Source of the DNA: Demequina zhanjiangensis
Lineage (GTDB): Bacteria; Actinomycetota; Actinomycetes; Actinomycetales; Demequinaceae
NCBI RefSeq assembly: GCF_030418315.1
Contig: NZ_JAUHPV010000005.1
Location: forward strand, 186,001 to 250,000
DNA length: 64,000 nucleotides
Direction: 5' to 3'
Both the position numbers and the translations under genes were made by a program. Positions 46,484 to 49,793 of this stretch are shown here, piece after piece. Position 1 is the first letter of the stretch. Every line of letters begins with the position of its first letter. Under the pieces are notes generated by a model. That model saw only the letters and a program-made list of their open reading frames with translations, did not search any database and was not told the DNA's origin.

Positions 46484-47308
46484 GTGCAGCTGCCCCCTTC
46501 TCCGATCGACCTGAGGCTCGTCGTCTGCGACATGGACGGCACGCTGCTCGACGAGCACAAGCGCATCCCGGAGCGGCTGTGGCCCCTGCTCGAGGAGCTG
46601 GGCCGGCGGGGCATCGCCTTCGCTCCCGCCTCGGGCAGGCAGTACGCGACGCTCGCGAAGCAGTTCGGCGAGGTGGGCTCCCATCTCGACTACATCGCGG
46701 AGAACGGCGCACTCGTCATGAGGGAAGGGGCCGAGGTGAGCTCGAGCCCGCTCCCGGCGTCGGATGTGCCCGCGCTCGTCGAGGCGCTGCGCGAGCATGC
46801 AGCGTCGGGCGCCGACCTGGGGATCGTGCTGTGCGGGAAGCGCTCGGCCTATGTCGAGCGCACCGATGAGGCCTTCTTGAGCAAGGTGGAGCACTACTAC
46901 AAGGCGTTGACGGTCCTGGAGGACCTGGGCACCGCGGAGGACGAGTTCCTCAAGATCGCCGTCTACGACTTCGGCGGGGCAGAGGGCACGGCCGCTTCGC
47001 TGGCGTCGTTCGAGGACCACCTGCGCGTGGTCGTCTCCGATCATCACTGGGTCGATGTGATGGCACCTGGAGTGAACAAGGGAAAGGCGCTCGCTGCGCT
47101 TCAGCGGTCTCTGGGCATCACGCCGAGTCAGACCGCGGTCTTCGGCGACTTCCTCAATGATCTGGAGATGATGGGGGAGGCGGAGCTGTCCTTCGCCATG
47201 GCCAACGCTCACCCGGAGGTTGCAGCGGCGGCGCGCTACCGAGCCCCCTCGAACGCCGAGGAGGGCGTCATCACCGTGCTCGAGGAGCTGCTCGCGCGCC
47301 TCGGTTAA
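46484..47308 (+). CDS. Cof-type HAD-IIB sugar-phosphate/FMN phosphatase
   Basis: A 274-residue HAD phosphatase with motif I DMDGTLLDEH, motif II in APASGRQ, the IIB cap, and motif III/IV Lys plus GDFLNDLEMM. It dephosphorylates sugar phosphates, FMN or PLP. GTG at 46484 is the start because the frame begins here and AAAGGCGG precedes it. A TAGCAT -10-like hexamer lies at 46427-46432. Its stop codon overlaps the CsoR-type palindrome of the next gene. Confidence 0.9.
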   Translation: MQLPPSPIDLRLVVCDMDGTLLDEHKRIPERLWPLLEELGRRGIAFAPASGRQYATLAKQFGEVGSHLDYIAENGALVMREGAEVSSSPLPASDVPALVEALREHAASGADLGIVLCGKRSAYVERTDEAFLSKVEHYYKALTVLEDLGTAEDEFLKIAVYDFGGAEGTAASLASFEDHLRVVVSDHHWVDVMAPGVNKGKALAALQRSLGITPSQTAVFGDFLNDLEMMGEAELSFAMANAHPEVAAAARYRAPSNAEEGVITVLEELLARLG

Positions 47309-47323
47309 TACCCCATGGGGTAT
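47308..47323. promoter_or_regulatory. CsoR/RcnR-type operator palindrome
   Basis: ATACCCCATGGGGTAT is a perfect 16-nt palindrome of the C4/G4 kind bound by CsoR-family copper or persulfide sensors. It overlaps the HAD stop codon and the -10 element (47321-47326) of the following gene, so binding would block its transcription. No csoR gene is in the window. Confidence 0.72.
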
Positions 47324-47326
47324 CGT
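47321..47326 (+). promoter_or_regulatory. -10 element, leaderless start of the CPVC membrane protein gene
   Basis: TATCGT lies 6 nt before the ATG at 47333; its first three bases are the end of the CsoR-type palindrome. Confidence 0.55.
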
Positions 47327-47332
47327 GGTGGC

Positions 47333-47809
47333 ATGACGACGATCATTGACGCTCTTCGCCAGTGGCCCGCCCGCCGGTGGTGGTTCGCCACCGGCACCGC
47401 ACTCGCGACCTTCCTCTTCATCGCGATTCCGACCGACCTGATCCCGAACCCGATCTTCGGACGAGAGATCCCCCCGACGCCGTGGTCGTGGTGGGCGTTG
47501 GGCCTCAGCTCGGTGCTCGCCGGGCTCGTCGCCGCCACCTATGTCGCCACTCCCGAGGAGGCACGGAGCGAGCGCGAGGGGCGGCTCGGGATGGCCGGCG
47601 GGATCGTCACGTTCTTCGCCGTCGGATGCCCCGTCTGCAACAAGCTCGTGCTTCTCGCCCTCGGATACACCGGCGCGATCCAGTGGTTCGAGCCGATCCA
47701 GCCCTACCTCGCGCTCGGCGCGATCGTCCTCCTGGGGTGGGCCTTCGTCGCACGCGTGCGACGCGAGCAGTCCTGCGTGATCCGCAGCGTCCCGCAGCCG
47801 GTCGCCTGA
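47333..47809 (+). CDS. small membrane protein with CPVC motif, CsoR-site controlled
   Basis: 158 residues with four predicted helices (about 17-36, 50-71, 87-113, 123-141). VGCPVCNK at residues 98-104 places a CxxC pair (Cys99, Cys102) inside or at the edge of the third helix; a further Cys lies at 148. I do not recognise an established function. The CxxC pair plus the metal/persulfide-sensor type operator suggest copper handling or sulfur/thiol redox at the membrane (inference). The start is fixed by the leaderless -10 and by the palindrome just upstream. Confidence 0.82.
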   Translation: MTTIIDALRQWPARRWWFATGTALATFLFIAIPTDLIPNPIFGREIPPTPWSWWALGLSSVLAGLVAATYVATPEEARSEREGRLGMAGGIVTFFAVGCPVCNKLVLLALGYTGAIQWFEPIQPYLALGAIVLLGWAFVARVRREQSCVIRSVPQPVA

Positions 47810-47843: not shown

Positions 47844-48491
47844 TCACGCGACGGCAGCCTCCCGCGCCTGGTAGGCCTGCATGGCGCCCATGGCGTCGGC
47901 GAGGGCGTTCGCGCCCTCCTCGAACAGCGTCACCGCATCCGTGCTCGGGTCGGTGAGGAACACCTTCTCGGCGGCGTAGAGGCACGAGAACGCAGCGCCT
48001 GCGATGGCGCTCGCCGCCACCTGGCTCATCTCGCGCCCCGCGCGGTGCTCGCGCGTGATGAGGGCGCGCACCGCGAGCTCGACGTTGTGGCGCCGGCGGT
48101 AGTTCCGCGCGGCGTGCAGGCGGGGCGACTCGGCCACGATCTGCGCGAGCTGCGACTGCGAGGCGCGCTCGTCCCCCTCGGACAGGAAGCGCTCCACGAC
48201 GCGGAAGGACTCCGTGACGGCCGCGAGCGACGGAATGTCGTCGGGCATGCCGAGGATCGCGTCGGCGATCTGCTCACCGAGGTCGTCGTAGTAGTGAAGG
48301 AGCACTGCGTCCTTCGTCTCGAAGTGGCGGAAGAAGGTGCGGCGAGAGACGCCGGCCCTCTCCGCGATCATCTCGATGGTGGTCTCGTCATAGCCGTTCT
48401 CGACGACGAGCGAGCGTGCTGCGCCGGCAAGGGCTGCGCGCACGCGGCGACGGGCGGCCTCGCGTGCTCCGATGGGTCGTTCTTCAGTCAT
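47844..48491 (-). CDS. TetR-family regulator
   Basis: A 215-residue TetR protein with an HTH near residues 35-65 (TIEMIAERAGVSRRTFFRHF) and a C-terminal helical domain like those of actinobacterial MftR/AcrR-type regulators. Start ATG at 48491 is supported by TAGAAT 8 nt upstream. It follows the MFS gene on the same strand by 57 nt and may regulate it, although it seems to have its own promoter. Confidence 0.86.
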   Translation of the reverse strand: MTEERPIGAREAARRRVRAALAGAARSLVVENGYDETTIEMIAERAGVSRRTFFRHFETKDAVLLHYYDDLGEQIADAILGMPDDIPSLAAVTESFRVVERFLSEGDERASQSQLAQIVAESPRLHAARNYRRRHNVELAVRALITREHRAGREMSQVAASAIAGAAFSCLYAAEKVFLTDPSTDAVTLFEEGANALADAMGAMQAYQAREAAVA

Positions 48492-48499
48492 GGTCAACG

Positions 48500-48505
48500 A
48501 TTCTA
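48500..48505 (-). promoter_or_regulatory. -10 element, near-leaderless start of the TetR gene
   Basis: TAGAAT on the minus strand ends 8 nt before the ATG at 48491. A GTGA-CAC-TCAC dyad (48507-48517) lies just upstream. Confidence 0.42.
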
Positions 48506-48548
48506 CGTGACACTCACTCACATTTGAGAACGCATGGTCCCGATGACC

Positions 48549-49793
48549 CTAGTCGACGACAGCTCCCTCGGCGGCGTCGTCTCGCGGAACCGACTCGCCG
48601 CGGGTGGACCTGAACCACGGCACCGCCACGAGCACAGGGATCAGCATGACTGCCGCCACCAGGAGCGACGGACCATACCCGGCCGACGCAGCCACGAGCC
48701 CCGGCACCACGGCGCCGATCACCGAGCCGGGATAGGTGAACAGGTTGACCCTCGCGACGATCTCGTCGGACCGGCTCGGCTCAAGGTCGCCGGCCGCCGA
48801 ATAGGCGAGCGGGACGAGCGCGCCCACCCCCGCGCCTGCCAGCGCGACCCCCAGGAACACCGCGCCGACCGTAGGCAGCAGTGCCATCATCGCGAGCCCG
48901 ACCGCGCCGACCATCGCGGTGACGGCCGCGAGCGGCGCCCGGCCCCAGCGCCGCACCACCAGATCGGAGCCGAGCCGGCTGACGAGCGTCGCCACCTGAT
49001 AGGTGCCGTAGCCCAAGGGAGCGATCGCGAAGGCGAGCCCCGCGACGGTCCACGTGCCCGTGACCGCGAGCTCGTCGTGCAGATACAGCGTGGTCCACGT
49101 GCTCAGGGTCGAGTCCGCGGTGAAGGCTGCGAAGACCACGAAGCCCACCAGCAGCAGTCCGAGCGTGGGGATGCGAGTCCGGGCGGCCTTCTGCTCTGCG
49201 GTCGTGGCGCGCACCTCGCGCGTCCGGTCGAAGATGCGCGCGCCCACGCCGGCGACGCTCGCGGCGACCACGGCGGCGACTCCGAGAGCCAGTCCGGCGC
49301 CGAGCGCCGATCCCGAGGCGCCCGACATCAGCACCGCGCCCGCCGCTGACGCCGCCGTGGCGGTCGCGAAGAACGAGCCCATGACCGCGCGGCCGATGCG
49401 ACGCTGGACGAGGACGGCCTGCATCGCCGCCGAGGCATCGACGCCGCCCAGGCCCAGGCCGTAGACGCCGAAGAAGGCCCAGAAGAGCGGGAACGGCACC
49501 GGCAGGAGCACGACGCACAGCGCGGCCGCCTGTGCTCCGAGCGCCAGCATCAACGAGGTGCGGGAGCCCCAGCGGACGGAGACCCGATCCGCGAGGATGG
49601 AGCCGAAGGCCGCCCCGACCACCACGGTGAGCGTGATGAGCGACACGGTCTCCTCGTCGATGCCGTACCGGTCCCGGAAGAAGGGGAGCGCGGTCACCAC
49701 CGTCGCGTAGCTGAGACCTTGGGCGGCGTACGCGGCGGTGACGCCCAGCCGCTCGGTGCGCTGAGGAACGCCTGTGGGGACGAGCGCGGTCAT
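48549..49793 (-). CDS. MFS transporter of the SCP2/aminotransferase cluster
   Basis: A 414-residue major facilitator with twelve hydrophobic segments. The loop ADRVSVRWGSR matches the MFS signature between helices 2 and 3. It is likely an exporter or sugar/drug-type MFS; the substrate is unknown. It starts 9 nt after the aminotransferase stop, so it belongs to the SDR-TetR-SCP2-aminotransferase operon and may export the pathway product. Confidence 0.87.
   Translation of the reverse strand: MTALVPTGVPQRTERLGVTAAYAAQGLSYATVVTALPFFRDRYGIDEETVSLITLTVVVGAAFGSILADRVSVRWGSRTSLMLALGAQAAALCVVLLPVPFPLFWAFFGVYGLGLGGVDASAAMQAVLVQRRIGRAVMGSFFATATAASAAGAVLMSGASGSALGAGLALGVAAVVAASVAGVGARIFDRTREVRATTAEQKAARTRIPTLGLLLVGFVVFAAFTADSTLSTWTTLYLHDELAVTGTWTVAGLAFAIAPLGYGTYQVATLVSRLGSDLVVRRWGRAPLAAVTAMVGAVGLAMMALLPTVGAVFLGVALAGAGVGALVPLAYSAAGDLEPSRSDEIVARVNLFTYPGSVIGAVVPGLVAASAGYGPSLLVAAVMLIPVLVAVPWFRSTRGESVPRDDAAEGAVVD

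Follow-up and report, generated by a model that had tools for sequence, protein, structure and literature searches.

The window analysed here, a 64,000-nucleotide stretch of the Demequina zhanjiangensis genome, carries a gene for a membrane protein with a CPVC motif, preceded by a palindrome. This raises two questions: which signal controls the gene, and what does its product do? Where annotated, its relatives are all listed as 'hypothetical protein', and the way in which persulfide or other sulfane sulfur crosses the cytoplasmic membrane, or is reduced there, is poorly known. The locus is organized as follows:

46484..47308, plus strand: upstream HAD-IIB (Cof-type) hydrolase gene, with its stop codon abutting the operator
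47308..47323, no strand: predicted CstR/ScCsoR-type operator ATACCCCATGGGGTAT, found in 20 of 21 readable congeneric orthologues and matching the ScCsoR site (PMC7533328)
47321..47326, plus strand: predicted -10 element TATCGT, whose TAT is shared with the right arm of the operator; TATNNT is invariant in 20 orthologous promoters
47333..47809, plus strand: CPVC membrane protein gene (158 amino acids), predicted leaderless, with four predicted helices
47627..47638, plus strand: C99-P-V-C102 motif, within predicted helix 3; identical in all 56 aligned members
47774..47776, plus strand: C148 codon, directly past helix 4, aligned to MerT C76 and invariant in the 56-member alignment

Promoter of the CPVC gene

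The palindrome ATACCCCATGGGGTAT is exact, of the form ATACCn6GGTAT, and is the sole copy in the window when up to three mismatches are allowed (chance expectation 0.04). Its first base is the final base of the TAA stop codon (47306–47308) of the upstream hydrolase gene, which itself probably lies outside the sulfur system. An earlier note on this DNA had called it a CsoR-type palindrome, and it does equal the site ATACCn6GGTAT bound by ScCsoR of Streptomyces coelicolor, a regulator whose sensing needs both its cysteines and which hydrogen polysulfide (HSnH) releases from its site (PMC7533328).

A screen of 44 Demequina genomes identified the CPVC protein in 22, with readable upstream DNA in 21. 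The operator is kept 9 nt (10 in one) 5' of the start codon in 20 of these, and is absent from one, the 50% identical orthologue. All 20 promoters have the same layout, with the operator followed by TATNNT, then 6 nt (7 in one), then ATG or GTG. The centre of the operator is free among orthologues (AT, CT, AC, TT, AG and others), and the flanking DNA is variable. Because the spacing and the TATNNT element are conserved in 20 orthologues, two further proposals of the earlier note are supported, namely that the mRNA is leaderless and that the operator overlaps its predicted -10 element. The ORF caller had placed the start at ATG 47315; I rejected this choice, as that codon falls within the palindrome's variable centre and is not conserved. 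The conserved start at 47333 gives a protein of 158 residues and agrees with the numbering C99 and C102 used previously.

In Demequina the CPVC gene is monocistronic, with no partner beside it. Its minus-strand neighbours (window 47844–49793) are a TetR regulator resembling the mycofactocin regulator MftR (sub-threshold) and an MFS transporter.

Predicted regulator and target genes

The whole genome encodes a single CsoR-family protein (G000:C11:104243-104509), away from the CPVC gene as had been anticipated. Its two cysteines are kept, and a glycine occupies the position of the copper-CsoR histidine. No histidine was found at this metal-ligand position in any of 57 relatives, including those adjoining CPVC genes in other genera, and the closest match in the PDB, a CsoR-family entry, has asparagine there. 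Judged by these residues, the regulator is of the CstR type, with two cysteines and no copper-ligand histidine.

A genome-wide scan for further copies of the palindrome, using ATACCCCNNGGGGTAT, revealed 20 places (3 exact, 7 with one mismatch and 10 with two), against 1 for the reversed control. At one mismatch the palindrome is present in 42 of the 44 Demequina genomes, and the control in none. The two near-complete genomes that lack it are G028 and G038, and in neither was a CsoR gene detected; in a third, 85% complete genome (G037), palindromes are present and the CsoR gene was not found.

Besides the CPVC gene, the best sites precede a gene adjoining csoR, whose CoA-disulfide-reductase-like product includes the start of a rhodanese domain, and the genes for a rhodanese lipoprotein (a secreted rhodanese), an FmdB zinc ribbon protein, a DoxX protein, a thioredoxin, an SQR-like flavoprotein, a second CoA-disulfide-reductase-like protein, and a SLAC1/TehA transporter, from which an AdhE-like gene, identified from reading the sequence, diverges. 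The region between these last two contains two palindromes (L006/L019; G000:C13:107388-107526), which suggests that fermentation or anion export is under the sulfur regulator. A one-mismatch palindrome also stands before a gene for a 58-residue cysteine-rich protein (MCSPATCPRCGKTTWTGCGNH..., L009, minus strand, about 1286–1462), with no match in Pfam or NCBIfam. The palindrome is absent from both copper ATPases of the genome. It is likewise absent from its CcdA/DsbD and DsbA homologues, which counts against the model proposed below.

The earlier note had left open whether the protein is a copper or a sulfane-sulfur membrane factor; of these, the evidence favours the sulfur branch. Sulfur fits better than copper because the regulator is of the CstR type, the operator matches the ScCsoR site, the targets are sulfur and thiol genes, and the copper ATPases are free of the palindrome. 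Copper regulation was rejected after the palindrome had been sought at the copper ATPases and not found. Both marks of a Cu(I)-CsoR regulon are missing, the Cys-His-Cys copper site in the regulator and the operator at the copper ATPases, and those of a CstR/ScCsoR regulon are found: an operator at the promoter, a repressor with two cysteines and no histidine, and operators at rhodanese and SQR-type genes. From this pattern the CPVC gene is very probably under CstR-type regulation, and the function of its product is probably related to sulfur.

Sequence and structure analysis of the CPVC protein

As the earlier note proposed, four helices are predicted. The arginine-rich N-terminus and the C-terminal loop point to an N-in topology, with C148 inside and the CPVC motif in helix 3. 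An AlphaFold model has a mean pLDDT of 83, but of about 58–67 around the CPVC region. With the model weak at the motif, a Foldseek search gave no hit with E under 1 and pointed to no clear relative in structure; DsbB/VKOR was not among the fold matches, and the CcdA/DsbD fold had no clear match. A sequence search of the PDB with the family profile gave no match, and no enzymatic domain was found when sought. A DUF998 match (E 2.4e-4) was dropped since it occurs in 2 of 56 members only, as were Acyl_transf_3 and other weak membrane-protein matches, which are inconsistent among members.

A further signal came from the mercury transporter MerT. The Pfam model (PF02411) scores 18.2 bits, under its cut-off of 32.9, and the NCBIfam model (NF010314) 21.8 bits, under its cut-off of 150; the latter has sub-threshold matches in 35 of 56 members (best E 2.3e-5). 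As no protein in 296 genomes of the phylum scores above the MerT cut-off, MerT of the Cupriavidus plasmid pMOL28 was taken for comparison. Aligned to it with hhalign, the family profile gives a probability of 91% (P 9.6e-7, 33% identity over 61 columns); the alignment covers the C-terminal half of the CPVC protein and places C99 on MerT C24 and C148 on MerT C76. In a control run MerT scored 42.3, against at most 27.7 for 76 unrelated membrane-type ORFs, 16.8 for reversed MerT and 10 for MerE; four Cryobacterium tandem paralogues of the CPVC protein scored 74–87. Because the profile match is above the controls while single sequences stay sub-threshold, common descent with MerT is likely, though remote, yet the protein is not MerT.

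That it is nonetheless a mercury transporter proper, a diverged MerT, is extremely improbable: the widespread sub-threshold matches and the hhalign result speak for it, but the Pfam score is under the cut-off, the motif is CPVC and not CC, there are four predicted helices against the three reported for MerT (PMC3466566), the regulation points to sulfur, and no mer genes were seen in the annotated neighbourhoods examined.

Distribution of the family and conserved gene partners

A search of a species-level genome collection returned 535 stretches encoding CPVC relatives, of which the best 80 were kept, and the family thus has at least several hundred members. It reaches actinobacteria, alphaproteobacteria and haloarchaea, with plasmid-borne relatives in Rhodococcus, Streptomyces, Thermomicrobium, alphaproteobacteria and haloarchaea. 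In the alignment of 56 members neither CPVCNK nor C148 varies, and CPxCN is kept in haloarchaea and alphaproteobacteria; C148 is missing from some distant members, which counts against the model below. An accessory subunit or sensor that carries out no transfer chemistry and owes its co-regulation to an accident of operon history would agree with the lack of an enzymatic domain and with the monocistronic gene of Demequina, but no other feature is as well conserved across the domains of life as CPxCN, and I regard this explanation as very unlikely.

Gene partners were counted within 5 kb in 65 non-Demequina loci; as many of these come from Cryobacterium, the loci are not independent samples. 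Of the 65, 50 have one or more sulfur or thiol genes and 40 have the palindrome (at one mismatch), whereas a scrambled control occurs in none. Genes of the metallo-beta-lactamase fold, persulfide-dioxygenase type, occur in 26 loci, a CstR-like gene in 25, a secreted-type rhodanese in 23, and a DsbA-like gene together with CcdA also in 23. The other 15 loci lack every one of these partners in their vicinity, which counts against the proposed model.

The gene order is CPVC-DsbA-CcdA in Nocardioides and Knoellia and DsbA-CcdA-CPVC in Arthrobacter and Pseudonocardia, and in several partner operons the reading frames overlap. Haloarchaeal, alphaproteobacterial and mycobacterial members adjoin DsbD, TlpA, DsbA or thioredoxin genes, and the haloarchaeal and alphaproteobacterial ones also CcdA, TusA or TauE genes. 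These arrangements, with their tight overlapping operons, favour an electron relay, in which the CPVC pair would cycle between dithiol and disulfide and no sulfur atom would cross the membrane. Together with CcdA and a DsbA-like thioredoxin, the protein would maintain extracytoplasmic proteins or persulfides in the reduced state (or, in the manner of DsbB, in the oxidised one). However, hhalign against a CcdA partner detected no sequence similarity (probability 0.1%), the detected kinship is with MerT, a carrier, and the thiol-relay partners of Demequina neither co-localise with the CPVC gene nor share its operator, save the cytoplasmic thioredoxin. I consider an electron relay rather unlikely, though a serious contender.

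Some relatives in Rhodococcus, Mycolicibacterium and Pseudonocardia have copper-gene surroundings, which likewise counts against the proposed model: near them lies a P-type ATPase gene, one for a CsoR-family regulator or a multicopper oxidase, or CopY/M56 genes. Together with the MerT kinship and the copper branch of the earlier note, this would suit a soft-metal transporter, for example for Cu(I), acting in MerT style in copper supply or detoxification. Yet no palindrome occurs in the stretch read around these copper-context relatives, and in Demequina the only CsoR-family protein lacks the histidine ligand and the regulon is one of sulfur and thiol genes that leaves out both copper ATPases. 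I consider a copper transporter distinctly improbable.

Several arrangements were noted alongside. A Streptomyces plasmid (L160:1-12435) carries a sulfane-sulfur gene set in the order CsoR-CPVC-thioredoxin-CcdA-rhodanese-TauE-rhodanese-rhodanese, adjoining a Tn3 transposase and a recombinase, and is likely a mobile reactive-sulfur tolerance island. Five Cryobacterium loci (L089, L091, L094, L107 and L110) have a tandem CPVC paralogue directly downstream of the CPVC gene, which keeps the WPARR-like start and is missing the CPVC motif; the L089 copy has CTTC in its C-terminal tail. Haloarchaeal CPVC genes (L164:4414-4962, L165:4399-4947, L168:4483-5037) overlap an upstream gene whose product, another membrane protein, carries a GCASCG motif and has weak similarity (hhalign P 9e-4) to the CPVC family.

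Proposed mechanism

The model that I favour, with about even confidence, is that the CPVC gene is a unit of a CstR regulon whose repressor is released by persulfide, and that its product is a MerT-related membrane thiol relay passing sulfane sulfur or a disulfide, or else reducing equivalents, from extracytoplasmic to cytoplasmic thiol proteins or back; the sequences suit sulfur transfer and pure electron transfer alike. What they do show is the operator and promoter layout, the content of the regulon, the type of regulator, the conservation and gene partners of the family and its distant kinship with MerT; repressor binding, inducer, topology, cargo and direction are what I infer from them.

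At rest, the regulator would sit on the palindrome and block the overlapping -10 element. Persulfide or polysulfide would modify its two cysteines, upon which it would leave the DNA, and leaderless CPVC mRNA would be made, together with the mRNAs for the two CoA-disulfide-reductase-like enzymes, the secreted rhodanese, the SQR-like flavoprotein and the thioredoxin. The CPVC pair of helix 3 may then take over a sulfane sulfur, or else a disulfide, from a thiol carrier outside the cytoplasm, which would be the rhodanese lipoprotein in Demequina and a DsbA-like protein elsewhere, and C148, on the cytoplasmic side, would help to pass it on to cytoplasmic reductases. For a relay of sulfur specifically, my confidence falls a little short of even.

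An unannotated family that conserves a thiol pair is thus assigned by its operator to the reactive-sulfur response and by its sequence to the vicinity of MerT, which makes a 'hypothetical protein' a directly testable candidate for a membrane sulfur or thiol relay. Three points go beyond the earlier note: the distant kinship with MerT, the partnership with DsbA and CcdA, and the occurrence in more than one domain of life. No paper on a family of this kind turned up in literature searches for a sulfur protein resembling MerT.

Comparison with known systems

The CcdA/DsbD proteins are membrane electron conduits with a thiol pair next to a proline. The CPVC protein resembles them in this pair, and its gene partners CcdA and DsbA-like genes, but the sequences have no detectable similarity.

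A close regulatory parallel is the ScCsoR regulon of S. coelicolor, which has the same 16-bp operator and likewise places a rhodanese under a two-cysteine CsoR-family repressor; persulfide dioxygenase and TauE genes adjoin many CPVC relatives. However, no CPVC membrane gene is among the four genes described for it (PMC7533328), and the Demequina targets, unlike those of ScCsoR, lie dispersed around the chromosome, with CoA-disulfide-reductase-like, SQR-like and thioredoxin genes among them. With the CstR persulfide sensors of Staphylococcus and others, the likeness lies in the type of regulator, a cysteine pair without histidine; their operators and targets vary by species, and the pairing of regulator and operator in Demequina is a prediction.

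Compared with MerT (PF02411), which has a vicinal Cys-Cys in its first helix, the CPVC protein has CPVC instead, an extra N-terminal pair of helices, and predicted regulation by sulfur. The MerT kinship suggests a source for mercury transporters. It also invites a more speculative, and on balance unlikely, parallel, in which the Demequina system would be the sulfur counterpart of MerP-MerT-MerA: a secreted rhodanese or a DsbA-like carrier would give sulfane sulfur to the MerT-related relay, and the relay to a cytoplasmic persulfide/disulfide reductase, a flavoprotein of the MerA superfamily, with one persulfide sensor inducing them all. The analogy is worth noting because the CoA-disulfide-reductase-like flavoprotein belongs to the superfamily of MerA. 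If it were true, MerT would have branched off, as a specialised form, from an older bacterial and archaeal family of membrane sulfur or thiol relays.
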